From assembly GCF_025787225.1 (NCBI RefSeq), contig NZ_CP090958.1:3582550-3646549 (forward strand): a stretch of DNA of 64,000 nt, read 5' to 3'. Below, piece by piece: positions 1 to 55,909 of the stretch (the stretch's first letter is position 1; each line of letters begins with the position of its first letter). Source of the stretch: Saxibacter everestensis (GTDB lineage Bacteria; Actinomycetota; Actinomycetes; Actinomycetales; Brevibacteriaceae). The notes beneath the pieces are model-generated. The model worked only from the letters and a program-made list of their open reading frames with translations. It was not told the origin of the DNA and did not search any database. Made by a program: the position numbers and the translations under genes.

Positions 1-1178
1 TGCAGGGGGCGACCGGCCTGGAAAAGGCCGAGAACGACTTGCTGGCCGGCACCGACGACGCGCTGTTCTACCAAACGATGTCAGACCTGTTCACCGGCGA
101 ACAGCCGGCTGGCGCGGCGGTCGAACTGACCATCAACGCCAAGGCGCAGAAAGCGGCCTGGGACGCCCTCGGCGGTCAGAAGGGCGCAGCGGTCGCCATT
201 GATCCTTCGACCGGGCAGATCCTGGCAATGGTCTCCAAGCCCGGCTTCGATCCGAACAAGATCGCGACCCATAACGGCGAGGACTCCAAGGCTGCCTACG
301 AGGCGCTGAGCACCGACGAGGACAAGCCGTACTTCAACCGCGCCATCGCCGGCAACCTGTATCCGCCGGGTTCGACATTCAAGCTTGTCACCGCTGCCAC
401 CGCGCTGGAGTCAGGTGACTTCAACACGAATTCCGAGCTGAACGGGTCCGCCGCCCTGGACCTGCCGCAAACGACCTCGGTGATCCGGAACTCCAACAAA
501 CGGGCCTGCGGGCCCAACGATAAGGTCTCGATGATGCAGGCACTCACTATCTCCTGCAACACCGCGTTCGCCCAGCTCGGCATGGACGTCGGCGCGGACA
601 AGCTCCGCGAGCAGGCACAGAAGTTCGGCTTCGAGACAGATCTGGACATTCCGTTGAACGTCTCGGAAAGCACTTTTCCTGATGATCCCAATGCCCCGCA
701 GACGGCGCAGAGCGCGATCGGCCAGTTCGATGTGCGTGCCACGCCATTGCAGATCGCGATGGTGTCCGCGGCAATCGCCAACAATGGCACCCTGATGAAG
801 CCGAACCTGGTCAAGCAGGTGACTACCCAGAAGTCACTGAGCGTGATCGAGAAGCCGAGCGCCTCGGAGCTGTCCAAGCCGATTTCCGAGGACACGGCCG
901 CCCAGCTCACCGAGATGATGCAGTCCGTGGTGAATTCCGGCACCGGACGCAGCGCGAAGATTCCCGGTATCGATGTCGCCGGCAAGACCGGCACCTCGCA
1001 GAACGTGGAGGGGGCTGCACCGCACGCCTGGTTCACGTCGTTCGCTCCGGCGAATGACCCAAAGGTCGCGGTGGCGGTCGTCGTCGAAAGTGGCGGTAAT
1101 GCCGGGAGCGACGCATCCGGAGCCCAGGTCGCCGGTCCAGTGGCCACAGCAATTACCAAGGCGGTGTTGAACAAATGA
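1..1178 (+). CDS. pbpA: Penicillin-binding protein A (class B transpeptidase), 5' truncated
   Basis: The reading frame is open from base 3, so the N-terminus lies outside the window. What remains is the penicillin-binding transpeptidase domain that cross-links peptidoglycan outside the membrane. The three active-site motifs are in order: STFK (in [13 protein letters not shown]), SCN (in [11 protein letters not shown]) and KTGTS. Actinobacterial PbpA is about 480-490 residues, so roughly 100 residues with the membrane anchor and dimerisation domain are missing. The stop TGA overlaps the ATG of the next kinase gene (ATGA), indicating translational coupling. The pbpA-pknA-pknB order is the conserved cell-shape operon, normally preceded by pstP and rodA. 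The identification is very secure. Confidence 0.95.
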
Positions 1179-2935
1179 GGCCAGCAAGTGGCGTAGTACT
1201 GGGCAACCGGTACAAGCTGACCGAAAGAATCGCCGTCGGCGGCATGGGCGAGGTGTGGAAGGGCGACGACGTCGTTCTTTCTCGAGTCGTCGCCGCCAAG
1301 ATCCTCAAAGAGGAATACACCGGCGACCCGAGCTTCCTCGAGCGTTTCCGCGCCGAAGCCCGCAATATGGGCGCCCTGTCGAACCCCGGGATCGCGGGCG
1401 TCTACGACTATGGCGAAGAGGACAATTCGCCGTACCTCGTGATGGAGTACGTGCCCGGCGAGCCGCTGTCCGCCATCCTCGATCGCGACCCGCAGCTAAG
1501 CGTCGACCGCACGCTGGATTACGTCTCGCAGGCTGCTCTCGCCTTGCACGCTGCCCATCAGGCCGGAGTCGTGCATCGCGACGTGAAGCCCGGAAACATC
1601 CTGATTACGCCGGATGAGCGGGTGAAGATCACCGACTTCGGCATTGCCCGGGTCACCGATCAGGTTCCGCTGACGAAGACCGGACAGGTGATGGGAACCG
1701 CGCAGTACCTGGCGCCGGAACAGGCCACCGGCAAGCCGGCGGCACCGTCATCGGACATCTATGCCCTCGGTGTCATCGCCTACGAGGCGCTAGTCGGGGA
1801 ACGTCCGTTCACCGGCGACAGCCAGGTCGCCATCGCGATGGCCCAGGTCAACGAAGCCCATCCGCCGCTGCCCGACTCCGTTCCGGAGCCGGTGCGACGC
1901 CTGGTGGACTGCCTGCTGGCCAAGAAGCCCACCGACCGTCCGCAAGAGGCCAGGAGTCTGGCCGCCGCCGCTGATGCGCTGCGACGAAACGATGTCGCCG
2001 CCGCGGAGTCAGCCGTGCCCGAGATGATCACGGATGGCGGTGCGACCCAGGCCACGACCGTGATGGACAGCGGTCCGACGCAGGCCACCACCGTCGTGCC
2101 CGCCGCTGCCTTCGGAGCCGGGGCTGCCGCCGGCGCTGCGGCAGGCGGCCGGCACACGCAGAATTTCGATGACGTCGTCGGAGCCGGCGGGGAATACGCG
2201 GCCTCCGACGTCTATGGCGACGGCGACCCAGACGCCGAGCAGGTCGACGAGAAGAAAAAGATGTCGAAGGGCAAGATCGCGGCCATCGTGATCGGCATCC
2301 TGCTGCTACTCGTACTGCTCGGCATCCTGCTTGCCAACACCGTTTTCAAGCCCACCGCCCCGCCGCCGACCGAGACATCGTCGGCGCCGACGACGGTGGT
2401 GACCAGGACCGAGACAACGGAAGAGGAATCGCCTTCGTCTCCGCCACCACCGCAGGAGACCACGGAGGAACCGGAGCAAACCGAGACTTCCGAGCCCGCG
2501 GATGAGACCGTCACCATTAACCCGGACGACTACATCGGCCGGGCCGGCGACGAGGTTGCCCAGGACCTGATCGCCAAGGGCCTTCAGGTCAGGCAGGTCC
2601 AGGTTGAGAGCGACCGGGACTTCGGTCTCGTGGATGGCATCCGCCCCGGAGGCGACGGCTACACCTTTACCGAGGGCGAAACCGTCACCGTCGAGGTATC
2701 ACGAGGCAATGAACCCGACCCGTCCGAAACCGAGACCTCCGAGCAGCCGACCACTCCGGAGGATACCGAGGGTGAGACGGATAACGATGACGGCGGCGAG
2801 GGCAACGGCAATGGCCGCGATAACAGCGGCCGGAATGGCAATGGCAACGGTGGTGGCGAGGGCTCGCTGAACGACACGACGGCTGAGAACACCGGAGCCG
2901 GCACCACGAACAATTCCCATTCGGAGAAACTATGA
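1175..2935 (+). CDS. pknA: Membrane Ser/Thr protein kinase with one PASTA-like domain (PknA position)
   Basis: This 586-residue Hanks-type kinase has a glycine loop (GGMGEV), ATP-binding Lys42, the catalytic HRDVKPGN loop near 134-141 and DFG near 154. An Ala-rich linker follows, then one membrane span near 366-388 ([17 protein letters not shown]). Outside the cell come a Thr/Glu/Pro-rich stretch, one PASTA-like unit (about 448-515) and a Gly/Asn-rich tail. Mycobacterial PknA lacks a PASTA domain, so the name rests on operon position, not on domain layout. It overlaps pbpA and pknB by 4 bp at each end. By family knowledge it phosphorylates division and wall-synthesis proteins. Confidence 0.9.
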
Positions 2936-4875
2936 ACGATCGTCGCGTACTAGCTGGACGCTACGAAATTCGATCCATCCTCGGCCGTGGAGGCATGGCC
3001 GAGGTTCACGAGGGGCTCGACACCAGGCTCGGCCGAACCGTCGCCATCAAGCTGTTGCGTTCCGACCTTGCCCGTGATCCGTCTTTCCAGGCTCGGTTAC
3101 GCCGTGAGGCACAATCTGCAGCTGCGCTGAATCACCCGACAATTGTCGCGGTCTACGATTCTGGCGAAGAGGTCGTTCACGAGGCCGGCGGCGAGGACAT
3201 CCACGTGCCGTTCATCGTGATGGAGTACGTCAAGGGCAAAACCCTGCGTGAAATCATCAAGCGCGAGGGCGGCGCGACGATCCGCGAGGCCCTGGATATT
3301 TCGGCAGGCGTGCTGTCTGCCCTGCAGTACAGCCACCGGGCGGGCATCGTGCACCGCGACATCAAACCGGCAAACGTCATGCTGACGCCGAATGGCGATG
3401 TGAAGGTGATGGACTTCGGCATCGCTCGCGCGCTGGCGGATTCCGGCGCCACGATGACACAGACCCAGGCGGTAGTCGGGACCGCTCAGTACCTTTCGCC
3501 CGAGCAGGCCCGTGGCGAGCTCGTCGATGCGCGAAGCGACCTTTATTCAGCCGGCTGCCTGATGTACGAGCTATTGACCGGGCAACCCCCGTTCACCGGT
3601 GATTCTCCCGTATCTGTCGCCTATCAGCACGTGCGGGAAGTTCCTGAGCCTCCCTCGTCGATCAATCCGGCGATCAACGAGGCATTGGACGCCGTCGTGA
3701 TGCACGCCCTGAAGAAAGAGCGGGACGAACGCTACCAGGATGCCGCGCAGTTCCGCGATGACGTGCTCGCTGCCCGGGACGGCCGTCCGCTGAGCCTTTC
3801 CGGCCCGGATGACGATGCCACCGTCGCCATGGGCGCGGCAGGCCTCGTCGGCGGGGCCGCGGGAGCTGCGGCTGCAGCCGGGGCGGCAGGAGCCACCCAG
3901 GCCTTCCCGCAGCAGCCGACCGCGGTCTATCCGATGCAAACAGCAAACGGCGCAAACGGCACCGCCGAGTCCGATCCGGCCGAGACAACCTTCGACCGGA
4001 TGATGTTGGGCGAGGCCGGAGCGAATCCCGGCGATGACGAGCCGCCCGTCGAGGAGAAAAAGAAGAAGACCCGCAAAACGGGCATGATCGTACTCGCCTG
4101 CGTGCTCATCGCCGCGCTGCTTGGCGCACTCGGCTACTGGCTGGTCGCGCTCAGCACGGCCGAGCCGGAGCCCGTGACATTTAAGCTCGACAACATGGTG
4201 AACGTTCCCGCCAGCCAGGCGGAACAAATCCTGGAAGGCAGAAGCCTCAAGGTCGTTCAGAAGGAACGCAACGATGACGAGGTGGTCGAAGGCAACGTGG
4301 CGGCCACCGACCCTGAGGCCGGTACGACCGTTGCCGAAGGATCGACAGTTACCCTCTTCGTGTCGACCGGCCCGGAAAGCATCGAAGTTCCGGACGTGAA
4401 CGGGCAGACCGAAACGTACGCCCGGCAACTGATCGCACAGGCTGGATTGACCGCGGGAAAGAACAATGAGGACTTCAGCCCGGATGTGGACAAGGGCAAC
4501 GTAATCCGCACCGACCCGAAGAAGGGCTCAAAGGTCGATCCGGACGAGCAGGTGGACCTGGTGCTGTCCAACGGCCAGATCGAGGTGCCCAACGTTACCG
4601 GCGAAGGTAGCAAGTCCGATGCCTGCAAGATCCTGGAATCCGATGACTACCAGCTGAAGTGCAAGACCAAGGACGTGGAAGACGAGAAGGCCGAAGAGGG
4701 CAGCGTAATCGGTCAGAGCACCGAAGGTGGCGAGGCCGTCGATCAGCACACCACGATCACCATCGAGATCGCTGTCAAGCCGGAACCGGAGCCAAGCCCT
4801 TCTGAGCCGGAACCGACACAGACGGAGACACCAACAATTCCGGTACCCACCCTCCCGGTGCCGCCCGAAGACTGA
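2932..4875 (+). CDS. pknB: PASTA-domain Ser/Thr protein kinase PknB
   Basis: This 647-residue kinase starts at an ATG overlapping the pknA stop. It has a glycine loop (GRGGMAEV), Lys40, the catalytic HRDIKPAN near 140-147 and DFGIAR. A lysine-rich juxtamembrane segment (EEKKKKTRK) precedes one membrane helix near 383-405. Outside are three PASTA units (about 412-477, 478-545 and 546-615) and a Pro/Glu/Thr-rich tail. PASTA domains bind muropeptides or lipid II and tune kinase activity to wall precursor supply. Likely substrates in this window are the CwlM-like protein at 49294-50451 and the MurJ-associated pseudokinase at 51987-54218. That link is inferred from Mycobacterium. Confidence 0.94.
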
Positions 4876-5104
4876 GGCGCTGTTCGCTGCTGATCGCGAG
4901 TCGGCTTGTCCGCCGGCTCCGGACGCTGAGTCTGCTATCCCCCTAGTCAGACGGCGATTTCACTGCTGTTATTGAGGGACTAATACAGCACGGCGCCCTT
5001 CGCTCAGGCCCGCCAAGACCGGACCGACGTTGTATAGTCGAAGGTCGCAGAACGCCCCGATGCAATCAGAGATCGCGTTCATTGGCCCGAGCCGTAAGGA
5101 CAAA

Positions 5105-7222: not shown

Positions 7223-7252
7223 ATCTCCCAGTTCCACAAAGAAGGAGGAGCA

Positions 7253-8737
7253 ATGAGCTCACCAGCAAGTCTGTTCATCGATGGCGAGTGGGTGCCTGCG
7301 ACCGCAGGCGGAACCCGTGACATCCACTGCCCGGCGAACGGCGAGTTCGTCGCCACCGTCTCTGAGGCCGGGACCGAGGATGTCCACCGGGCGATTGCGG
7401 CGGCACGCCATGCGTTCGACGCGGGCAGCTGGTCTGCCACCCCGGGACCGGAGCGCGGCGACCTGCTATTGAAAGTCGCCGAGCTCCTGCGCGAGCGCAA
7501 GGATGAGTTTGCCCGCGCCGAATCACTGGATACCGGAAAGCGTTTTGTCGAAAGCCAAATCGACATGGACGACATCGCAAACTGCTTCAGCTACTTCGGC
7601 AAACTCGCCGGACAGGACGCCGGACGATTGGTGGATGCCGGCAGCAACGATGTGCTCAGCCGCATAGTTTACGAACCGGTCGGCGTCTGTGGACTGATCA
7701 CTCCGTGGAACTATCCGCTGCTACAGGCCGCCTGGAAGATCGCGCCTGCCCTGGCCGCCGGAAATACCTTCATGCTGAAACCCAGCGAACTCACCCCACA
7801 CACCGCCATTCTGACAATGGATCTGCTCACCCAGGCCGGCCTTCCCGCAGGTGTCGCGAACCTCGTGCTCGGCGCAGGCGCCGTCGCCGGGGCACCGCTC
7901 TCCGAACATCCTGATGTCGACCTGGTCTCCTTCACCGGTGGGCTCGCCAGTGGCAAGACGATCGCAGCGAGCGCAGCCGCCACCGTCAAGAAGGTCGCCC
8001 TGGAGCTCGGCGGCAAGAACCCGAATGTCGTTTTCGCCGATGCGGACTTCGAAGCAGCGCTGGACAACGCCCTCAACGCAGCTTTCGTGGACTCCGGTCA
8101 GGTCTGCTCGGCGGGCGCGCGACTGCTTGTCGAGGAATCCATCCACGACCGGTTCGTCGACGAACTCACCCGTCGGGCCAGCCAGATCCGGCTCGGCGGT
8201 CCGTTCGACGAACAGGCCGAAACGGGCCCGTTGATCTCTGCGGCACATCGGGACAAGGTCACGGCGTACGTCAAGCAGGCGATCGCGGAGGGCGCCGAAC
8301 TGCGTTGCGGCGGCGAGTGGGGCAAGGGAGAGCTGGAATCCGGCTACTACTACCTGCCCACCGTGCTGGACAACGTACGCCGGGGTAGCACACCGGTCGT
8401 CGAAGAGGGCTTCGGGCCGGTCGTCACCGTAGAGACCTTCCGCACCGAGGAGGAAGCCATCGAGATCGCCAACGACACGAACTACGGCCTCGCCGGCGCG
8501 GTCTGGAGTCAGGACGCCGGAAAGTGCCAGCGCGTCGCCGGCCGGCTGCGCCACGGCACGATCTGGATCAACGACTACCACCCATATCTGCCGCAGGCCG
8601 AGTGGGGCGGATTCGGCCAGTCCGGCGTCGGTCGCGAACTGGGCCCGTCGGGACTCGCGGAGTATCAGGAAGCGAAGCACATTTACCAGAACCTGCGCCC
8701 AGCGGTCACAAACTGGTTTCCCCCGCACGCAGACTAA
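7253..8737 (+). CDS. betB: Betaine aldehyde dehydrogenase
   Basis: This 494-residue NAD(P)-dependent aldehyde dehydrogenase oxidises betaine aldehyde to glycine betaine in the cytoplasm. It shows the ALDH signature LELGGKNPN with the general-base Glu, and the nucleophile Cys285 in SGQVCSAG. PWNYPLLQ and the C-terminal WINDYHPYLPQAEWGG match betaine aldehyde dehydrogenases. The ribosome binding site GGAGGAG lies 4 bp before the ATG. It sits between the choline transporter and choline oxidase, which fixes the substrate better than sequence alone would. Length is normal for the family. Confidence 0.93.
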   Translation: MSSPASLFIDGEWVPATAGGTRDIHCPANGEFVATVSEAGTEDVHRAIAAARHAFDAGSWSATPGPERGDLLLKVAELLRERKDEFARAESLDTGKRFVESQIDMDDIANCFSYFGKLAGQDAGRLVDAGSNDVLSRIVYEPVGVCGLITPWNYPLLQAAWKIAPALAAGNTFMLKPSELTPHTAILTMDLLTQAGLPAGVANLVLGAGAVAGAPLSEHPDVDLVSFTGGLASGKTIAASAAATVKKVALELGGKNPNVVFADADFEAALDNALNAAFVDSGQVCSAGARLLVEESIHDRFVDELTRRASQIRLGGPFDEQAETGPLISAAHRDKVTAYVKQAIAEGAELRCGGEWGKGELESGYYYLPTVLDNVRRGSTPVVEEGFGPVVTVETFRTEEEAIEIANDTNYGLAGAVWSQDAGKCQRVAGRLRHGTIWINDYHPYLPQAEWGGFGQSGVGRELGPSGLAEYQEAKHIYQNLRPAVTNWFPPHAD

Positions 8738-8779
8738 CCCGCGCATCCGTCCTGAACATGAGGAAAGGAAGAATTACCG

Positions 8780-10330
8780 ATGCCAGAAAACTATGACTAC
8801 GTGGTAATTGGCGGCGGCTCTGCAGGCGCCGCCGTGGCCGCCCGGCTGAGCGAGGACCCGGATGTCAGCGTTGCCCTGATCGAAGCCGGTCCATCGGACG
8901 TCGACGACGACGCCATCCTGCAGGTCAGCCGCTGGATGGAACTGCTGGAATCAGGTTACGACTGGGACTACCAGGTCGAGCCGCAGGAAAACGGAAACTC
9001 GTTCATGCGCCATGCACGTGCCAAGGTGCTTGGTGGCTGCTCCTCGCACAACTCCTGCATCGCCTTCTGGGCCCCCAGGGAAGACCTCGACGAGTGGGCG
9101 GCAATGGGTGCGGTCGGCTGGGAGGCGGAAAACTGCTTCCCGGTCTTCAAGCGACTGGAGAACAACGATCAGGCCGGCGATGACCACGGGCACGACGGTC
9201 CGGTCCACCTCCGGCAGGTACCGCCCGTGGACAACTGCGGTGTCGCCCTGCTCGATGCCTGCGAGTCGATCGGCATCCCGCGAGTGCAGTTCAACGACGG
9301 CAACACCATCACCAAGGGTGCCAACTTCTTTCAGATCAATGTCCGCGAGGACGGAGTGCGGTCATCATCGTCCGTCAGCTACCTCCATCCGATCCTGGAG
9401 AGGCCGAATTTCACCCTGCTCACCGGCATCCGGGCTAAAAAGCTGAATTTCGACGCTAACCAGCGCTGCACAGGCGTCGACGTGCTGGACCGGGACCTGT
9501 TTCACACCCGCACCATTGCAGCCAACCGCGAAGTCGTGCTCTCTGCCGGCGCCATCGATTCCCCGAAGTTGCTGATGCTTTCCGGAATCGGTCCGGCCGA
9601 GCACCTGCAGGAGATTGGCATCGACGTTCTGGTCGACTCGCCGGGTGTCGGCTCGAATCTTCAGGACCACCCCGAGGGCGTCATCCAGTGGGAAGCGAAG
9701 CAGCCGATGACGCAGATCTCCACGCAGTGGTGGGAAATCGGCATCTTCTCCACAACAGAGGAGGGGCTGGACCGACCGGACCTGATGTTCCATTACGGTT
9801 CGGTACCCTTCGACATGCACACTGTCCGGCAGGGATATCCATCCACGGAGAACGGTTTTTGCCTGACCCCTAATGTGACTCACGCCAGATCCCGCGGTAC
9901 CGTCCGCCTGCGCAGCATTGATTCCAGGGACAAGCCTAGGGTCGATCCGCGCTACTTCACCGATCCGCACGATATGCGCGTCATGGTTGCCGGAATCAAG
10001 CTGGCCAGGGAGATTGTGAGCCAGCCCGCGATGGCCGACTGGGCAGGCCAGGAGCTCTACCCCGGGCCGGAGGTGCAGTCGGATGAGGAGATCACAGACT
10101 ACATCCGCAAAACTCACAACACTGTGTATCACCCCGCTGGCAGCGTGCGGATGGGAGCTGCCGATGACTCCCATTCGCCGCTCGACCCGGAGCTGCGAGT
10201 CAAGGGAGTAACCGGTCTGCGGGTAGCGGATGCTTCGGTGATGCCGGAGCTGACGACTGTGAATCCGAACATCACGACGATGATGATCGGCGAGCGCTGT
10301 GCCGACTTCGTAAAGGCCGCCAGCAGCTGA
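8780..10330 (+). CDS. codA: Choline oxidase (FAD-dependent GMC oxidoreductase)
   Basis: This 516-residue GMC flavoprotein resembles Arthrobacter globiformis choline oxidase more than choline dehydrogenase BetA. The Rossmann motif GGGSAGAAVAARLSEDP is at the N-terminus. GGCSSHNSC carries His90 at the position that binds FAD covalently (His99 in A. globiformis) and Ser92 (Ser101). Glu299, Val449, His451 and Asn495 match the active-site residues Glu312, Val464, His466 and Asn510, from my memory of that enzyme. Choline oxidase performs both oxidations, choline to betaine aldehyde to betaine, reducing O2 to H2O2. With betB next door, the aldehyde intermediate can be cleared by either enzyme. RBS AGGAAAGG precedes the ATG. 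Confidence 0.9.
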   Translation: MPENYDYVVIGGGSAGAAVAARLSEDPDVSVALIEAGPSDVDDDAILQVSRWMELLESGYDWDYQVEPQENGNSFMRHARAKVLGGCSSHNSCIAFWAPREDLDEWAAMGAVGWEAENCFPVFKRLENNDQAGDDHGHDGPVHLRQVPPVDNCGVALLDACESIGIPRVQFNDGNTITKGANFFQINVREDGVRSSSSVSYLHPILERPNFTLLTGIRAKKLNFDANQRCTGVDVLDRDLFHTRTIAANREVVLSAGAIDSPKLLMLSGIGPAEHLQEIGIDVLVDSPGVGSNLQDHPEGVIQWEAKQPMTQISTQWWEIGIFSTTEEGLDRPDLMFHYGSVPFDMHTVRQGYPSTENGFCLTPNVTHARSRGTVRLRSIDSRDKPRVDPRYFTDPHDMRVMVAGIKLAREIVSQPAMADWAGQELYPGPEVQSDEEITDYIRKTHNTVYHPAGSVRMGAADDSHSPLDPELRVKGVTGLRVADASVMPELTTVNPNITTMMIGERCADFVKAASS

Positions 10331-45138: not shown

Positions 45139-46119
45139 TCAGGAACGGACGCTAGTCGCCAGCACGGTGTCCACCAGCTGGCGATACACCGGAGCCAATA
45201 CCTGAGTGGGAGACGAAGCAGGCTCGCTGTTTTGCAGAATTGCCCGCGGAAGGATGGAGGTCTCGGTCATTCCAGGGGCGGTGTCCGCCTCCAGGAACCA
45301 GGCCCGGCCGTCCGTATCCACGATGAAGTCGATTCGGGCGATATGGCGCAGATCCAGCGCCCGGAATGCAGCGAGTGCGGCTAACGCTACCGTGGACAAT
45401 GTTTCACGTGAAACACGGGCCGGAATATGAAACCGGCTGGCCCCGGCAGTGTAGCGGGCATCGTAGTCATAAGAACCGCCGACTGCCTCGATCTCGACGG
45501 CCGGCAAGGTGGCCGGGCCGTCGCCGAGGTCAAGCACGCCGACCGAAATTTCGGTTCCTGACACGGCCGGTTCGATCAGGGCAGCTTCGCCGTAGCCAAA
45601 ACAGGTAACCATTGCCGGTGTGAGCTCGAGATCGGACGTCACCAGGGTAAAACCCTGCGACGAACCTGCCATCACCGGCTTCACACTAAGTGGAAGCGGC
45701 ATTGCCGACGTCAAGGCTCCAAGGATCGCCGTCGCACCGAGCTCTCGGAAGCTGCTCTTCGGCAGCACAACATCGGGCAGTACAGCGACCCCGGCAGCCT
45801 CGACCGCATTCTTGGCCAAGCTCTTATTCCAACTCAGCGCGGCTGATCTAGGTTTTGAACCGATGTAAGGCAAACGCAGTAGATTGAGCAGATCAGCGAT
45901 AGTACCGTCTTCACCCATTACGCCGTGCAGGGTTGGCCAGACCAGGTCGGGTTTCGAGTCGCGAAGGTGTTCGAGCATACCGGTCTCCACGTCGATCGTC
46001 TCGACGTGCGCACCGGTGTGCCGAAGGGCGTCGGCAATCCGGCGGCCGGAGCGCTGCGAGACTTCCCGTTCATGGGACGATCCCCCGGCGATGATCACGA
46101 CATGCGGTTCAGCAGGCAT
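45139..46119 (-). CDS. D-alanine-D-alanine ligase-like ATP-grasp protein
   Basis: From the ATG at 46119 the protein has 326 residues, starting MPAEPHVVIIAGGSSHEREV. It has the Ddl features LVWPTLHGVMGEDGTIADLL, the Ser-loop SVKPVMAGSSQG and the ATP-grasp C-terminus FLEADTAPGMTETSILPRA. The usual E-V/I-N-T Mg2+ motif reads E-A-D-T, so the Asn ligand is Asp here. That, and its position after parB next to an aminotransferase, make a divergent substrate possible. A parS site lies inside it. Confidence 0.82.
   Translation of the reverse strand: MPAEPHVVIIAGGSSHEREVSQRSGRRIADALRHTGAHVETIDVETGMLEHLRDSKPDLVWPTLHGVMGEDGTIADLLNLLRLPYIGSKPRSAALSWNKSLAKNAVEAAGVAVLPDVVLPKSSFRELGATAILGALTSAMPLPLSVKPVMAGSSQGFTLVTSDLELTPAMVTCFGYGEAALIEPAVSGTEISVGVLDLGDGPATLPAVEIEAVGGSYDYDARYTAGASRFHIPARVSRETLSTVALAALAAFRALDLRHIARIDFIVDTDGRAWFLEADTAPGMTETSILPRAILQNSEPASSPTQVLAPVYRQLVDTVLATSVRS
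45400..45415. promoter_or_regulatory. parS: parS site 3, inside the Ddl-like gene
   Basis: TGTTTCACGTGAAACA lies within the minus-strand ligase gene and reads V-S-R-E-T in its frame (ARVSRETLST). It is the third perfect site within 2.5 kb. Confidence 0.95.
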
Positions 46120-46144
46120 GGTGCCCTTTCGGTTAGGCAGTCGA

Positions 46145-47410
46145 TCAACCGGCAATAATCGGGACTTCGCCCGTGAAGGTGGTTAGCATCTCCTGCTCGG
46201 CGTCAATCACTGTTGCCAGGCGGCGTACCCCTTCCCGAATCCGATCCGGAGTAGGTCCACTGTACGCCAGCCGCAGGTGGCCGGAGCCCCTGCCATCCGC
46301 GAAGAATCCGGTGCCCGGTGTATAGGCCACTCGCTCAGAAACAGCTCGGGGCAGCATGAGCTTGGAGTTCATCCCGGTCGGCAGTGTCATCCAGACAAAG
46401 AACCCTCCAGCTGGCCGCGTCCACCTTGCCTGCGGTACGAAGTCTGCAAGGGCCTGCAATAGTGCGTCGCGCCGTTCACGATACAGTTCGCGGAACACCT
46501 TTATCTGGCCGTCCCAGTCGTTGTTTGCCAGGTAGGTTGAGACCACGAGCTGGTTGAACATGCTGGGACTGAGAACTGTTGATTCACTGGCTGAAACCAG
46601 CTTCTCGCGGATCGCGGGGGGAGCGGCAGCCCAACCGACTCGGAGGCCCGAGGCAAGGGTCTTCGAGAATGAGCCGAGATAGATTACGCCGTCTTCGTCG
46701 TGCGAGCGTAGCGCCGGCAACGGCTCCGAGTCGAACGAAATCAGCCCGTACGGATTGTCTTCGATAACCAGCAGCTTATGTCGGCGGGCTATTTCGAGAA
46801 TCTGAATCCGGCGTGGCCCGCTCAGTGTGACACCCGAAGGATTCTGAAAGTTCGGAATCAGGTAGAGCAGTTTTGGCCGCCGTCGCTCAACGGCCAATCG
46901 GCGCAGAGTTTCTTCCAGCTGCTCGGGAATGAGGCCGTCGTCGTCCATCTCGACATGCACTACATCCGCTTGGTAAGAGGTGAAGGTGCCGAGGGCGCCA
47001 ACGTAGCTCGGCCCTTCTGCGACGACGACATCTCCCGGATCGAGAAAGACCTTGCTGACCAGGTCGAGCGCCTGCTGGGATCCGGTGGTCACGACGAGAT
47101 CGTCGGGATGGGCGACTATGCCTTCGCGCTCCATCACCAGCGAAATTTGTTCCCGCAGTTCCTCGGTCCCTTGCCCGGTGCCGTACTGCAGCGCTTCCGC
47201 GCCACGCTCCCGGACGAGCCGAGCGCACAGTTCGGCAATATCGTCGAGTGGCAGGGCGCTCACATAGGGAGATCCACCCCCCAGGTTGACTACATCCGGT
47301 CGGGAGGCAACGCTGAACAACGCGCGTACCTCCGATGACACCAAACCGACTGCGCGTGCCGCGTATGAGCCAGCCCAGGGATCAAGCTGAGTGCCGTCAT
47401 TTGGTGCCAC
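46145..47410 (-). CDS. PLP-dependent aminotransferase (class I/II)
   Basis: This 421-residue fold-type I enzyme starts with GTG, AGGAGG 8 bp upstream. It has LGGGSPYVSALPLDDI, QYGTGQGTEELREQI, VTTGSQQALDLVSKV, YLIPNFQNPSGVTLS and the PLP Lys in GSFSKTLASGLRVGW. This pattern is that of MocR/LysN-like 2-aminoadipate and multi-substrate aminotransferases, but no GntR domain is fused. The substrate is unknown. It is 25 bp upstream of the Ddl-like gene, so they may be an operon. Confidence 0.88.
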   Translation of the reverse strand: MAPNDGTQLDPWAGSYAARAVGLVSSEVRALFSVASRPDVVNLGGGSPYVSALPLDDIAELCARLVRERGAEALQYGTGQGTEELREQISLVMEREGIVAHPDDLVVTTGSQQALDLVSKVFLDPGDVVVAEGPSYVGALGTFTSYQADVVHVEMDDDGLIPEQLEETLRRLAVERRRPKLLYLIPNFQNPSGVTLSGPRRIQILEIARRHKLLVIEDNPYGLISFDSEPLPALRSHDEDGVIYLGSFSKTLASGLRVGWAAAPPAIREKLVSASESTVLSPSMFNQLVVSTYLANNDWDGQIKVFRELYRERRDALLQALADFVPQARWTRPAGGFFVWMTLPTGMNSKLMLPRAVSERVAYTPGTGFFADGRGSGHLRLAYSGPTPDRIREGVRRLATVIDAEQEMLTTFTGEVPIIAG

Positions 47411-49293: not shown

Positions 49294-50451
49294 CTACTTA
49301 CGCCGGGTGTAGGCAAGCACCTCATCGACGCGGAGCGTCCCGGTGGGGCGATCATCATCTTCGGGTAGGTACAGCCGCTGGATGGCAGCGAGAACGGCTT
49401 CGGCAACGGTGTCGCGGAAGGCAGGGTCGGCAAGCCGACGCGCGTCGCCTGGATTGGAGAGGTAGCCGACCGCCAGCTGGACCGCCGGCATCGGAACCCT
49501 GCGCAGCACATCCCAGGACCGGGCGTGCGAGCGGCAGTCGAGCAGATCGGTGCGGGCGATCACTTCGCGCTGGATCAGCCCGGCCAGCGAGGCGCCGATC
49601 GGTGAAGCATCCGCGGCGTCGTTGTCCTTGCCGTAGTAGAACGTGGCGAAGCCGTTCGGCTCGGCACTCGGACTCGCATCGCAGCGGATGGAGAGGTAGA
49701 TGTCTGCGACGACGTCTTCGGATAACGCCGCGGACATCGCACTCGCATCGGTAGTGGCAATTGCGGCGGCGCCGACGGCAGAGAGTCGACCCTCCAACCG
49801 ACGGGCGACGTCGGCGGCAACGTTGGATTCCAGCAGTCCGTTGCCTGCGCTCGGCTTTTCGCCGCCGGACTCGATGACGATCACTTTGCCGGCCAGCGAA
49901 GAGCCGGCACTCACCACGCGTTCGGCCTCGTGCATCGCGAATGGATTTCCGCCGGTAACTGCACGCCCCAGCTTCGAGATTCCGCGAAGCGTGGCCGGCC
50001 CGCAGACGCCGTCCGCCGTAAGTCCCAGCCCACGTTGCAGCTCGCGCAAGGCAGCTTCCGTTTCCACGCCGAGCATTCCGTCCACCTGCCCGGTGAACAC
50101 GCCGAGGTCACGGAGTCGCTTTTGCAGGGATACCACGTCATCCCCTTGCAGGATGCGAACCGGATCGAAGCGCAGAATCCGGTCGCCAAGCGCCCAGTGT
50201 GCGCTGTCCAACGCGCGTACCGTTTGCGGCCCGATCACGCCGTCGACGAGCAGCCCCCGGTCCTGCTGGAAGGCGCGCACGGCCGCGTCGACGTGATCAT
50301 CGAACAGCTCTGGGTTGTCGACATCGGCCGGGGAAAGGTGCGATATCTGCGACCCGGAACGAATCAGCTGCTCGCGAATCGAGGGCAGCGCCGAACTGCG
50401 GTCTCCGCGCCGCAGGATGAGTGCGATGGGACGTTCGGCGTTGGTGCGCAT
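49294..50451 (-). CDS. cwlM: CwlM-like cytoplasmic pseudo-amidase with two peptidoglycan-binding domains
   Basis: This 385-residue protein has no signal peptide. Two PG_binding_1 domains (about 15-80 and 90-155: DVVSLQKRLRDLGVFTGQVD) precede an Amidase_3 fold. Every expected zinc or catalytic residue I can place is altered: VIVIESGGEKP replaces the DPGHGG His, LSIRCDASP has Arg for the second His, and AVQLAVGYLSN lacks the catalytic Glu; the Glu in LLESNVAAD remains. In Mycobacterium, CwlM is a PknB-phosphorylated activator of MurA. The C-terminal DRPTGTLRVDE offers Thr targets. The locus trxB-trxA-cwlM is conserved. Confidence 0.9.
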   Translation of the reverse strand: MRTNAERPIALILRRGDRSSALPSIREQLIRSGSQISHLSPADVDNPELFDDHVDAAVRAFQQDRGLLVDGVIGPQTVRALDSAHWALGDRILRFDPVRILQGDDVVSLQKRLRDLGVFTGQVDGMLGVETEAALRELQRGLGLTADGVCGPATLRGISKLGRAVTGGNPFAMHEAERVVSAGSSLAGKVIVIESGGEKPSAGNGLLESNVAADVARRLEGRLSAVGAAAIATTDASAMSAALSEDVVADIYLSIRCDASPSAEPNGFATFYYGKDNDAADASPIGASLAGLIQREVIARTDLLDCRSHARSWDVLRRVPMPAVQLAVGYLSNPGDARRLADPAFRDTVAEAVLAAIQRLYLPEDDDRPTGTLRVDEVLAYTRRK

Positions 50452-50513: not shown

Positions 50514-50834
50514 CTAAGCGATGAACTCGGTGAGTTCGGACAACAGGGCTGGCTTCGGTCGCGCGCCGATGATCGTCTTGACCACCTCGCCCTTGTTGAA
50601 GACGTACAGCGCCGGGATCGACGTGATTCCGTACTTGGCGGCGGTCTGCATGTTCTCGTCCGTGTTGACCTTGACGACATGCAGCTTCTCGGCGTTCTCG
50701 ACACCGATTTCATCGACCACGGGGCTGACCTGGCGGCAGGGGCCGCACCATGGTGCCCAGAAGTCGACCAGGACGGGCTTGTCGGACTGCAGAACCTCGG
50801 CGTCGAAGGTGCTGTCGGTAACTTCCTGAGACAT
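50514..50834 (-). CDS. trxA: Thioredoxin
   Basis: From the ATG at 50834 (AGGAAA upstream) the protein has 106 residues, starting MSQEVTDSTFD. It has the active site WAPWCGPCRQ, the cis-Pro of TSIPALYVF and normal length. It reduces disulfides in the cytoplasm and is recharged by TrxB, encoded just upstream at 50891. It precedes cwlM. Confidence 0.96.
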   Translation of the reverse strand: MSQEVTDSTFDAEVLQSDKPVLVDFWAPWCGPCRQVSPVVDEIGVENAEKLHVVKVNTDENMQTAAKYGITSIPALYVFNKGEVVKTIIGARPKPALLSELTEFIA

Positions 50835-50890: not shown

Positions 50891-51847
50891 CTAGACGAGC
50901 GAAGCCAGGTAGTGTTCCGCGTCGAGTGCGGCGACGCATCCCGAACCCGCGGCCGTGACGGCCTGCCGGTAAACCGGGTCGATGACGTCGCCGGCAGCGA
51001 AAACGCCGGGCAGCCCGGTCTTCGAGCTGCGACCCTCGACGGAAAGATAGCCGTCGTCGCGCAGCGTGAGCTGATCCGCGAATATCGAAACTCGGGGATC
51101 GGAACCAATTGCCACAAACATTCCGGTAGCGTCCAGCGTGGACAGCTCGCCGGTCAGCGTGTTGCGTACTCCGAGGCCCTCGACCTTCGACTGACCATGG
51201 ATCTCGGCGACTTCGTGGTCGAACAGGAACTCGATCTTTTCATCGGCGAAGGCACGATCCTGCATGACCTTCGAGGCGCGCAGTTCGCTCCGGCGGTGAA
51301 TCACCGTGACCTTGGAAGCGAACTTGGTCAGGAACGTTGCCTCTTCAAGGGCGGAGTCGCCGCCGCCCACCACGACGATGTTCTGGTCGCGGAAGAAGAA
51401 GCCGTCGCAGGTGGCGCACCAGCTGACGCCGTGGCCGGAAAGCTCCTTTTCACGAGGCAGTCCGAGTTCGCGGTACGCCGAGCCGGTCGAGAGGATAACG
51501 GAACGGGCACGCACGGTGGTGCCGAGCGCGGTGGTGATCGTCTTGACCGAGTCATCGAGGGTCAACTCGCTGACGTCGTCATAGATCACCTCGGCGCCGA
51601 ACTTCTCCGCCTGTTCGCGCATGTTTTCCATCAGGTCGGGGCCCATAATGCCCTTAGGGAAACCGGGGAAGTTCTCGACATCGGTGGTGTTCATCAACTC
51701 GCCACCGGCGGTCACCGAGCCGGCGATGACCAGTGGCTTGAGGTTGGCACGCGCGGTGTAGATCGCGGCCGTGTATCCCGCAGGGCCGGATCCGACGATG
51801 ACCACGTCGTGAATGATGGCGCTGGCATCTGTTGCGTTGTCGGTCAC
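50891..51847 (-). CDS. trxB: Thioredoxin reductase
   Basis: This 318-residue flavoenzyme has the FAD site GSGPAGYTAAIYTARA, the redox-active WCATCDGFF and the NADPH site VVGGGDSALEEA. It passes electrons from NADPH to thioredoxin. It starts with ATG or the adjacent GTG and precedes trxA by 56 bp. In many relatives sigM and rsmA lie between it and the MurJ gene, but not here. Confidence 0.96.
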   Translation of the reverse strand: MTDNATDASAIIHDVVIVGSGPAGYTAAIYTARANLKPLVIAGSVTAGGELMNTTDVENFPGFPKGIMGPDLMENMREQAEKFGAEVIYDDVSELTLDDSVKTITTALGTTVRARSVILSTGSAYRELGLPREKELSGHGVSWCATCDGFFFRDQNIVVVGGGDSALEEATFLTKFASKVTVIHRRSELRASKVMQDRAFADEKIEFLFDHEVAEIHGQSKVEGLGVRNTLTGELSTLDATGMFVAIGSDPRVSIFADQLTLRDDGYLSVEGRSSKTGLPGVFAAGDVIDPVYRQAVTAAGSGCVAALDAEHYLASLV

Positions 51848-51986: not shown

Positions 51987-54218
51987 TCAGCCCACGCCGA
52001 TCGGCTCGACTTCGGAGATCTCGGCGCTGTAGCCGCCCTCTGACTTGCCTAGCTTTGTGATCCACACAATCAGGTGCTCGGTTTCGATCGGCTCGTCGAA
52101 TTCAATCTCGACGGTGCCATCCTTGAACTTACCCTTGCCGACGACCTCCGATCCCTTGTATTCGCCGTCATCCGAGGCCCGGATCTCGAAGGATCCGCTC
52201 TTGGTATTGGATTTCAGCTTGACCGCGCTGACCTTGGTCTTCTCCTCAAGGGACAGAGACAGGCCCAGGCCCTTCTTGAGACCGCCGAACTCCGCCGAGC
52301 TGTACGTCTCGGTGCTCCAGGCCCCCTTCTTATCCAGCAGCACGCTCTTGGCCCGTTCCTCGTACTCCTTGCCGTCGCCACCGGGGTCGATCGAGGTTGC
52401 CTTCTTGAACACGGGCGAGGTCTTCTCCGGCTCGGCCTTGTCTTCGTCAGGCTCCTTCGTTTCAGCGGGTTTCGCCGTCGGTGATGCTGTCGGTGACTGC
52501 GCCGTCGGTTCCTCGTCCCCGCCGATGGAGGAGAGGTTGATCAACGCGATGACGACACCGACTATCACGAGCGCGCCAACAACCAGGGCACCGATCCTGG
52601 AGGGAGCGAGGCGTCTCGGCTTACCGCCCTCGCTCATTGCGGCGGAACTCGGTTTCCCGGGAACTCCATCGCCGGAGCCGACTGACCGCGCGCCGACAGC
52701 GGGGAGCACCGAGGTGGTCTCTTCCGGTCCCAATCCTGCGGTGAGCGCTGCTTTTGCCGCGGCGGCCCGTGCCGGGTTGCCCGATTTCACCGCACGCTTG
52801 ATCGGGTTGGTATCAGGACTGACCGGCTGGCCGTTCTTCGCGCCCTTACCCTTTGCCGGTGCCACCGGAGGCGCAACTGGCTGAGCGGGAGTCTTGCCGC
52901 GTGCTTGAGATCCGGCCGGCCTTGCGGCGGACGGTGCAGCTGTCTTTGCGGCATTAGTCGCGGCCGACGGTGCAGCCGATTTGGATTGCGGCCTGGCGGG
53001 ACGAGGGGTGACAGCGGGGGCCGGGGCGTCAGGTGGAACGCCGCTGTCGTCCTCGGCCTGGTAGAAACCACCGGGTTCGGTCGAGTGGTAGCTCGGGCCG
53101 GAGGCTAGCGGGAAGCGGGACGGCGACCGCATGGCGAGGGCATCATCCAGGTCCTCGGCATCGGCGCCCTGATCGGCGGCAATACCGGCTGCTAGCCCCT
53201 TGGCGCCGGGCCGCGAGGTGAAGCCGGATACCCGATCCCCGGTTTTACTCGCCGCGTTCCGGATGATCGCGCTGATCTGCGCCGGAGTTTGTTTGGGCGG
53301 CGGCTCGGCCAGACCCGCAGCCTCAGCCTTGGCTGCCTCCTCAGCGGCGACGTACAGGCCAGGAATCTCCTCGATCGGGTTCGGCCTGAACGGGACGCCG
53401 GCGGCGGCGATGCCCTTTGAGAAGACGGCTTCCAGCTCATCGTTCTGCCAAGGCCCCAGATAACTGGCTACCTCGGCCGGCGTACGCGGACCGTCCTCGA
53501 CACGGCCGAAAACGGCGGCGGCAAGACTGTCGATGTCATTCGGGATGCCTGGGGTCACATCACCTGGCGGGGCGATGGCGTCCCCTTGCACCGGAGCCGC
53601 TTCGAGGCCGTCGATGCCTTGTTCGGCGGGCCAGTAGCCGGTACACGCGGCATAGAGCAGTGAGACCAGGCTCAGCGCGTCCTGCTGCCTGGCAGGGGCG
53701 CCTTCCAGCGCGTCGCCATCGGCCGCGGCGGTATCGATGCCGATGCCCCGCACGTACACCCGGCCCTTGTCGTCGATATCGACATTGGACGGCCGGAGCC
53801 GGCCATGGTGCAGGCCCCGGGATGAGGAACTTGCCAGCGTTTCGGCGACCTCGCCGACGAGGGCGCGTGCCTGCTCCGGCCTGAGCGGGCCGTGGGACAG
53901 GATGTCGGAAAGTGGCCGGCCACCGGTTTCCTCAACCACGACATAGGTCAGCTCACCTTCCGACCCGACATCGAGGATGCGAGGGCTACGTGGCTCGCTC
54001 AGCAAAGCGACTCGCCTGGCGGCGTCCAGAATGTCTGCGCTTTGTGCTGCCTCTGCGGTGTAAAGGCGTACCGGACGGTCCAGAATGCCGTCGATGGCGG
54101 TGGAAACGTTGCCGCGGGCCGGGTCCTCACTGATCCAGGGATGTTCGATTTCGGAGATGACGTAACGCCCACCAATAATCGAGCCCCGTGTGATGCCAGC
54201 CAGGGCAATCACCTCCAT
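51987..54218 (-). CDS. Membrane pseudokinase with extracellular discoidin-like domain (MurJ partner)
   Basis: This 743-residue protein has a kinase-like N-terminus (about 10-250) that lacks catalysis: HRD is replaced by HGRLRPSN and DFG by RGIGID, and the glycine loop is degenerate. An Ala/Pro-rich linker (about 280-530) leads to one membrane helix near 540-562 (IGALVVGALVIVGVVIALI). The C-terminal 150 residues are an extracellular beta-sandwich with SGSFEIRASDDGEYKG, as in discoidin domains. In Mycobacterium the same parts are fused to MurJ (MviN) and bind FhaA after PknB phosphorylation; here they are a separate gene right after murJ. Confidence 0.85.
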   Translation of the reverse strand: MEVIALAGITRGSIIGGRYVISEIEHPWISEDPARGNVSTAIDGILDRPVRLYTAEAAQSADILDAARRVALLSEPRSPRILDVGSEGELTYVVVEETGGRPLSDILSHGPLRPEQARALVGEVAETLASSSSRGLHHGRLRPSNVDIDDKGRVYVRGIGIDTAAADGDALEGAPARQQDALSLVSLLYAACTGYWPAEQGIDGLEAAPVQGDAIAPPGDVTPGIPNDIDSLAAAVFGRVEDGPRTPAEVASYLGPWQNDELEAVFSKGIAAAGVPFRPNPIEEIPGLYVAAEEAAKAEAAGLAEPPPKQTPAQISAIIRNAASKTGDRVSGFTSRPGAKGLAAGIAADQGADAEDLDDALAMRSPSRFPLASGPSYHSTEPGGFYQAEDDSGVPPDAPAPAVTPRPARPQSKSAAPSAATNAAKTAAPSAARPAGSQARGKTPAQPVAPPVAPAKGKGAKNGQPVSPDTNPIKRAVKSGNPARAAAAKAALTAGLGPEETTSVLPAVGARSVGSGDGVPGKPSSAAMSEGGKPRRLAPSRIGALVVGALVIVGVVIALINLSSIGGDEEPTAQSPTASPTAKPAETKEPDEDKAEPEKTSPVFKKATSIDPGGDGKEYEERAKSVLLDKKGAWSTETYSSAEFGGLKKGLGLSLSLEEKTKVSAVKLKSNTKSGSFEIRASDDGEYKGSEVVGKGKFKDGTVEIEFDEPIETEHLIVWITKLGKSEGGYSAEISEVEPIGVG

Positions 54219-54274: not shown

Positions 54275-55909
54275 CTAACGAACTTGACGGCCGCGACGGC
54301 CCACAACAGCTGCGAGTACGTCACGGACTTCGCTGACCCGGAAGACGTGGCAGAAAACGAAGTACACGATTGCCATCACGGTTCCGACGATGAGGACTGT
54401 GACGAACGATCCCGCCCGCCCGCTCCAGGAGAATTCGGCGAGCGGCCAGAGGGAGAGGACGCCGGCTGCCGACGACAAGACCGCAGCGAAGGCCAGTTTG
54501 ACGTGGGCGGAGAGAATTCGGTCGCCGTCGATGGAGCCCAGCCGGCGGCGCAGCTGTCCGGCGGCAAGCACCGCGCCAATCGTATTGGCGAGGCTCATCG
54601 CCAGCCCGATGCCGACGACGATCCATTGCTTAGGCAGTGTTGCCGAGGCCAGCACACCGGCAGCGGTCAGCACGACGACCGGGATTTGTACCAGGAAAGG
54701 CGTCCGGGCGTCTTCGAAGGCATAGAAGACCCGTTGGATCAGATAGTTGGCGCTAAACGGCACGAGTCCCAGGACCATGGCGACGATGACCATCCCGATG
54801 GACGCGCCCTGTTCCCTGGTGCCGCCGGCGAGGATCAGCCCCACCTGCCCGGCGAGCACCAGGAGCGCCGCCGTGGCAAAGACGTTGACCACGGCCACCG
54901 TTCGCAGTCCGGCCGAAAAATTCCGCCGGACCGCGTCGAGGTCCCCGCTCGCCGCGTCGTGGCTCATCGGCGTGAACAGCGCCGTCGCGATGGACACCGC
55001 CGCCAGGGAATGCGGGAGCATGAATACCAGGAAACCCAGGGTGTACGCCGCATTGGACGCCGAGGACTCGCCGGATTGGGATGTCGCCGACGACGCGACC
55101 TGAGAGGTGACGATGAAGCCGATCTGGCCGATGAGCACGGCGGCGAACGTCCACCCCGCAACCTTTGATGCTCTGCTCAGACCGACGCCGCGGAAGCCGA
55201 ATCTCGGCATGAAACGGAACCCGGAGCGCATCAGCGGCCAGATCAGGATCAGGGCCTGCGCCACGACGCCGAGGGTCGCGGTGCCGGCGATCAGCGAGAT
55301 CTTTCCGTCGTCCCAGCTGCCAACCGGGTGCTGGCCCTGGTCACCGCGGCCGAACAGCGCGATGAAGGCGACAAGGCCGGCGATCGACACGATGTTGTTG
55401 ATCACCGGTGCCCACATGTATGGACCGAAGGAGCCCTTGGCGTTGAGCACCTGCCCGAGCAGCGTGTACAAGCCGTAGAAGAAGACCTGCGGAATGCACC
55501 AGTAGGCGAATGCGGTGGCCAGCGCAATTTGATCCTGGCTCCAGCCGGAGCTTGCGTAGACCCTGACCATGAGCCCGGAGAGCGCGGTCAGAATCAATGT
55601 GACTATGAGCAGGCCGGAAATCGAAAGGGTAAGCAGCCGGTCGGTGTAGTTCTTGCCGCCATCAGACTGTTTGGACGCCCGGACGATCTGCGGTACCAGT
55701 ACGGCATTGAGCACGCCACCGGCGATCAGCATGTAGATGTTGTTCGGGATCTTGTTAGCGACATCGAAGGCGTCCGCCGAGCCGCCGATCGTCGAGCCGA
55801 TGGCGGCGGCGAGAACGATCGCCTTAACGAAGCCGAGTATTCGCGACACCAGGGTGCCTGCGGTCATGATCAGTGATGAGCGGCCGAAACTTGCTGTCTT
55901 ACCACTCAC
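54275..55909 (-). CDS. murJ: Lipid II flippase MurJ
   Basis: This 544-residue protein has about 14 membrane helices of the MOP superfamily. It shows GTLVSRILGFVKAIVLAAAI, NKIPNNIYMLIAGGVLNAVLVP in two parts, and FVFMLPHSLAAVSIATALF-like helices (LGFLVFMLPHSLAAVS). It flips lipid-linked peptidoglycan precursor across the membrane. The GTG start overlaps the DUF6049 stop (GTGA). Unlike Mycobacterium MviN it lacks a fused pseudokinase, which is encoded downstream. Confidence 0.93.
   Translation of the reverse strand: MSGKTASFGRSSLIMTAGTLVSRILGFVKAIVLAAAIGSTIGGSADAFDVANKIPNNIYMLIAGGVLNAVLVPQIVRASKQSDGGKNYTDRLLTLSISGLLIVTLILTALSGLMVRVYASSGWSQDQIALATAFAYWCIPQVFFYGLYTLLGQVLNAKGSFGPYMWAPVINNIVSIAGLVAFIALFGRGDQGQHPVGSWDDGKISLIAGTATLGVVAQALILIWPLMRSGFRFMPRFGFRGVGLSRASKVAGWTFAAVLIGQIGFIVTSQVASSATSQSGESSASNAAYTLGFLVFMLPHSLAAVSIATALFTPMSHDAASGDLDAVRRNFSAGLRTVAVVNVFATAALLVLAGQVGLILAGGTREQGASIGMVIVAMVLGLVPFSANYLIQRVFYAFEDARTPFLVQIPVVVLTAAGVLASATLPKQWIVVGIGLAMSLANTIGAVLAAGQLRRRLGSIDGDRILSAHVKLAFAAVLSSAAGVLSLWPLAEFSWSGRAGSFVTVLIVGTVMAIVYFVFCHVFRVSEVRDVLAAVVGRRGRQVR

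Follow-up and report, generated by a model that had tools for sequence, protein, structure and literature searches.

CwlM of Saxibacter everestensis, a pseudo-amidase with an erased zinc site and a probable PknB-controlled role in peptidoglycan precursor supply

The cwlM orthologue of the actinomycete Saxibacter everestensis encodes a protein of 385 aa that is, with good support, catalytically dead and under selection for a non-catalytic role. It lies at 49294..50451 on the minus strand of the window (the whole analysed stretch of 64,000 nucleotides) and was identified by its open reading frame and Pfam domains. The protein is probably a cytoplasmic pseudo-amidase with an erased zinc site that serves as a PknB-controlled switch for the supply of peptidoglycan precursors.

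CwlM has the domain order typical of its family, namely two peptidoglycan-binding domains followed by Amidase_3 and a TGT tail at the end. Pfam scores were 94.9 bits for PG_binding_1 (in two stretches) and 87.6 bits for Amidase_3 (cut-off 27). The first peptidoglycan-binding-like domain comprises approximately residues 14-84 (50200..50412, minus strand), with approximate boundaries drawn from the two PG_binding_1 stretches and the helices of an AlphaFold2 model. The second was placed by PG_binding_1 at residues 102-156 (49984..50148, minus strand), and the degenerate Amidase_3 domain by Pfam, AlphaFold2 and Foldseek at residues 186-360 (49372..49896, minus strand). It is the sole full-length CwlM of the genome. 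Another Amidase_3 protein of S. everestensis, which looks like a secreted lipoprotein, served as control and carries the motifs DPGHN...SIHAN...VECG intact.

The preliminary description, made from the sequence, had called the amidase fold intact, and the structural comparison agrees with this. The AlphaFold2 model reached a mean pLDDT of 91.8 and a pTM of 0.87, and the top PDB matches found with Foldseek were amidases, namely LytH (7tj4), AmiC2 (5emi) and zinc-bound Rv3717 (4m6i) with a TM-score of 0.82 each. No signal peptide or membrane segment was apparent as judged from hydropathy alone, with 19-residue maxima of 1.25 overall and 0.05 close to the N-terminus. This absence had been taken as support for a regulatory role. 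The absence itself holds by hydropathy, but all CwlM homologues examined by Boutte 2016 (PMC4946905) lack a signal peptide, including those with an intact site, and therefore it does not discriminate a regulator from an enzyme.

Catalytic residues were assigned from an alignment of approx. 190 homologues. In most of the class the canonical columns for His1, Glu, His2 and the catalytic Glu read H-E-H-E. S. everestensis CwlM has G197 (codon 49861..49863), E208 (49828..49830), R256 (49684..49686) and A327 (49471..49473) in these positions, all on the minus strand. Two of the three zinc ligands (G197 and R256) and the catalytic Glu (A327) are replaced, and the site is not that of an active Amidase_3 enzyme. 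The loss of both His residues and of the catalytic Glu had been described correctly before, while the retained ligand Glu E208 had been overlooked, so that three of the four residues are lost and not all. Likewise, DPGHGG had been matched with ESGGEKP, but the alignment pairs it with ESGGEK and the slot of His1 is taken by the second Gly. An alignment slip at His1 could be ruled out, since in the AlphaFold2 model ESGG directly follows amidase strand 1 (residues 190-195) and the next helix (208-225) starts with E208, which is the layout of the canonical site. H309 (49525..49527, minus strand) is the sole His of the amidase domain according to the sequence and, by its conservation, a residue of the CwlM family. 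It was found in 60/60 members of the family of S. everestensis, here coded f1 (other families, genera and loci bear codes with f, g and L), and in 98% of the intact CwlM proteins. A zinc site with two His is impossible with one His in the domain, and H309 is not a stand-in ligand because intact CwlM conserves it too. A classical site with ligands that have only moved within the domain is thus ruled out.

Within f1, cwlM is retained with an intact reading frame in 60 out of 60 genomes. None of the 60 members has His1, His2 or an acidic residue (E/D) at the catalytic position; the ligand Glu in the E208 column is kept in 47. T370 and G371 of the tail are present in all of them. In the large genus of f1, dN/dS was 0.038 for the dead amidase domain (median of 187 pairs), 0.043 for the peptidoglycan-binding part and 0.032 for the tail. 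R218, R222, S283, G286, E296, R300, H309, G329 and D336 are conserved at or near 100% in dead and intact CwlM alike. Low dN/dS together with these invariant residues argues that the amidase domain is maintained for something other than catalysis. Numerous genomes in the order, from f5, f85, f88 and other families, contained no full-length match of CwlM grade. By gene content, CwlM appears to be dispensable in large parts of the order; the gene can be lost, yet f1 keeps it.

Two readings would deny CwlM such a non-catalytic role. CwlM could still be an active amidase with other metal ligands at a migrated site, as E208 and H309 are present and M. tuberculosis CwlM, whose ligands are degenerate, was once reported to have amidase activity (Deng 2005, as cited in PMC4946905). 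A migrated zinc site was rejected due to the one His in the domain; in addition, H309 is an old family residue that also occurs in intact CwlM, the catalytic acid is missing, and the substrate lies outside the cell while the protein has no export signal. This makes residual catalysis highly improbable. Given the fact that three of four catalytic residues are gone, the product of a decaying pseudogene without function was considered as well. This is contradicted by the full-length reading frame retained in 60/60 genomes and by dN/dS values of 0.04, as well as by the invariant T370-G371, the invariant CwlM-specific residues and the conserved linkage to trxA. Decay was therefore rejected and has next to no probability.

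The zinc site would have been lost once, in the ancestor of f1, and apart from the mycobacteria. Within the order, the families nearest to f1 (f3, f6, f4 and f84) have intact H-E-H-E or H-E-H-D sites. In a quick-search tree of 135 rows with masked ligand columns, f1 formed a clade (SH-aLRT 99) within an order clade (100) of mostly H-E-H-E families. Since the sister families keep H-E-H-E, the loss in f1 is independent of the mycobacterial one, and on the sequences compared a separate origin of the two is well supported. By parsimony, His2 was lost separately in seven lineages of the class, namely f1, f8 (mycobacteria and kin), f10, part of f110, one member of f117, f91/g271 and f91/g277, a figure that is approximate because of the quick-search tree and the parsimony count. 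The acidic catalytic residue was lost in only three, i.e. f1, f91/g277 and one f101 member. Distant matches at phylum level (f12-f68), which are perhaps not true CwlM, were excluded from the count. The group f8/g13 was taken as Mycobacterium because its residues agree exactly with the numbering of M. tuberculosis CwlM (T42, T43, T94, D117, S171, R176-L180, E217, M237, D339, T382, T384 and T386). The loss is graded in f110, a family with genomes of 1.2-1.9 Mb (e.g. L155, L160, L161), and ranges from the intact site of L156 to S-D-A-D in L161.

In S. everestensis, cwlM is located downstream of trxB-trxA. trxA (50514..50834, minus strand like cwlM, by Pfam) is its immediate upstream neighbour and is preceded by the thioredoxin reductase gene trxB (50891..51847, minus strand, by reading frame and sequence features). 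trxA adjoins cwlM in 31/31 f1 loci and in 20/20 mycobacteria-like loci tested. The window also contains pknA (1175..2935, plus strand) and pknB (2932..4875, plus strand), both assigned by Pfam; PknB has a kinase and PASTA domains and is likely the CwlM kinase. The genes for FhaA, FhaB, PstP and RodA are found upstream of PknA-PknB, in the window and its upstream flank (FhaA by Pfam). PknB, PstP, FhaA, MurA and MurJ are all encoded in the genome. The purely regulatory role proposed in the preliminary description is backed by the reading frame kept in 60/60 genomes, purifying selection, the phospho-Thr positions, synteny and the nearby genes for PknA, PknB, FhaA and PstP. The genes directly past pknB (5030-10330) encode a BCCT-type transporter and proteins resembling betaine aldehyde dehydrogenase and choline oxidase, likely a glycine betaine (osmoprotection) cluster. 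Between parB and the cwlM-trx cluster, there are genes for a D-Ala-D-Ala-ligase-like protein and a PLP aminotransferase (45139-47410).

Mycobacterial CwlM is cytoplasmic, its tail is phosphorylated by PknB and the phosphorylated protein activates MurA (PMC4946905) and binds FhaA (PMC6180346). Even after removal of all four zinc residues, CwlM of M. smegmatis still complements (PMC4946905). In S. everestensis the C-terminal phosphorylation motif (PTG/TGT) is present as RPTGT at residues 368-372. The codons of T370-G-T372 (49336..49344, minus strand) align with the M. tuberculosis PknB phosphosites T382 and T384 (PMC6180346, PMC4946905), while the third phosphosite, T386, corresponds to Arg. By analogy with mycobacteria, we infer phosphorylation, FhaA binding and an effect on MurA or MurJ. 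The amidase fold would be kept as a folded platform, and PknB would phosphorylate the C-terminal tail at T370 and perhaps T372. The FHA domain of FhaA would read the phosphorylated tail, PstP would undo the modification, and the phosphorylation state may pick the partner in early peptidoglycan synthesis, either MurA or the MurJ/pseudokinase module. The tail together with the genes for FhaA, FhaB, PstP, RodA, PknA and PknB makes the FhaA arm plausible. Counted against this switch were the unconserved MurA contact, the absent MurJ linker, the replacement of T386 by Arg and the old activity report (Deng 2005, as cited in PMC4946905).

At the predicted contact with MurA, S. everestensis differs from mycobacteria. 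For mycobacteria, a contact of CwlM E178/E179 with MurA R346/R355 was proposed; its effects in vivo were mild and binding was undetectable (PMC12723410). In the alignment, HEAER at residues 174-178 (49918..49932, minus strand) replaces mycobacterial REEEL, the predicted MurA contact (PMC12723410), with A176 at the position of M. tuberculosis E178 and E177 at that of E179. MurA of S. everestensis has Arg at the R346 equivalent and Ser at the R355 equivalent. Across 40 genomes, compared for an interface that is itself predicted, the contact was not found in f1, where E178 was kept in 0/7, E179 in 1/7, R346 in 4/7 and R355 in 0/7 members. E178 was replaced in all seven, by a basic residue in six. 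R355 of MurA was kept in 27/33 genomes of other families, and in most of the class E178 is likewise unconserved. As the seven members share ancestry, the change counts as one or few events. The main MurA (at L081) has Asp at the catalytic position (GGDAIGSRG) like the mycobacterial type, and equivalents of R346, D348, H350 and S368 are present. A second MurA-like protein (L083:1492-2808; C1:924812-926089 in the organism's own genome) has Cys at the catalytic position (GGCRIGDRP). Two MurA-like proteins were seen in several genomes of the order, too.

The MurJ arm is, from the gene structures, absent in its mycobacterial form. Unphosphorylated mycobacterial CwlM binds the intracellular linker of MurJ (PMC6180346), which in M. 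tuberculosis extends from E541 to F680, in a MurJ that also has a fused pseudokinase. MurJ of S. everestensis (54275..55909, minus strand, Pfam MurJ) stops at 544 aa without an intracellular domain, and the region for this contact is lacking. Next to it, a stand-alone protein (51987..54218, minus strand) was recognised by kinase similarity as a homologue of the pseudokinase portion found in the intracellular domain of MurJ. It matches residues 723-953 of the fused MurJ in one genome (G781), and its kinase-like part starts near the N-terminus. Two neighbouring genes encode MurJ and the pseudokinase in S. everestensis and in the further genomes of the order that were tested, while the MurJ frame continues for at least 500 residues (fused) in mycobacterial and f107 genomes.

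Concerning the step that CwlM controls, the preliminary description had it act on MurA as shown for mycobacteria, and left aside the arms via FhaA and MurJ. In the strict form of this reading, phospho-CwlM would stimulate MurA via the REEEL helix. The catalytic Asp of MurA with the equivalents of R346, D348, H350 and S368 and the E177 still present in the CwlM helix speak for this. However, R355 is gone in 7/7 and R346 in 3/7 f1 members, CwlM E178 is replaced in 7/7 and E179 in 6/7, E178 is unconserved in most of the class, and even the mycobacterial contact has a mild effect in vivo, with binding not detected (PMC12723410). With the predicted contact altered on both partners in f1, the claim finds weak support; on the sequences the MurA arm in its mycobacterial form is doubtful, and the contact was probably remodelled within f1. 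Somewhat less likely again, and taken as a whole, is the following combination: the zinc site was shed at least seven times in the class because the real job of CwlM is cytoplasmic precursor sensing or holding a complex together, and the f1 contact to MurA was rebuilt, the charges of CwlM and MurA both being altered, so that CwlM would act at a different step or interface than in mycobacteria. The dead cleft might also bind a putative cytoplasmic precursor or recycled muropeptide, and binding instead of catalysis would tune the switch. S283, G286, E296, R300 and H309 are invariant after the loss of the zinc site and the peptidoglycan-binding domains are conserved, but the invariant residues may equally be structural or belong to a protein contact, and such ligand sensing is considered unlikely.

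The PknB-controlled pseudo-amidase proposed here resembles mycobacterial CwlM (Rv3915/MSMEG_6935) in domain order, cytoplasmic location, the lack of an export signal, degenerate His ligands, the phospho-Thr tail (T382/T384 = T370/T372) and the trxA neighbour, and is 46-48% identical to it along almost its entire length. It differs from it in reading G-E-R-A, where mycobacteria have R-E-R-D (14/14 genomes surveyed), and has lost the acidic catalytic residue too; REEEL, MurA R355, the MurJ intracellular domain and T386 are all not kept. The H-E-H-E CwlM of sister families in the order (e.g. L003 with 56% identity) shares the architecture, tail motif and trxA linkage but, unlike S. everestensis CwlM, has all four zinc and catalytic residues. 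Secreted Amidase_3 enzymes (Rv3717/Ami1, LytH, AmiC2, CwlV) have the same fold (TM ∼0.8), but they are exported zinc enzymes, whereas S. everestensis CwlM is devoid of both His ligands and an export signal. Inactive hydrolase regulators of the EnvC type likewise use a dead hydrolase domain as regulator, a parallel already drawn in PMC4946905; EnvC is, however, extracytoplasmic, activates amidases and belongs to a different fold family. The degenerate zinc residues, cytoplasmic location and phosphorylation motif of CwlM were described by Boutte 2016, whose survey of 97 homologues noted both intact and degenerate sites (PMC4946905). For the names tried, a literature search found no paper that treats CwlM in the f1 group. 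What is new is that the loss goes further in f1, that separate losses are counted explicitly, that the dead domain is under purifying selection and that the MurA contact has changed.

These results caution against carrying the CwlM-MurA contact of mycobacteria over to other actinomycetes. Lineages like f1 are natural replicates of the four-residue zinc-site removal in M. smegmatis, as they carry nearly the same change, and the small-genome lineage f110 is a natural series for the order of zinc-site loss. With its intact site, the sister family offers a clean comparison for the question whether an intact cytoplasmic CwlM catalyses at all.
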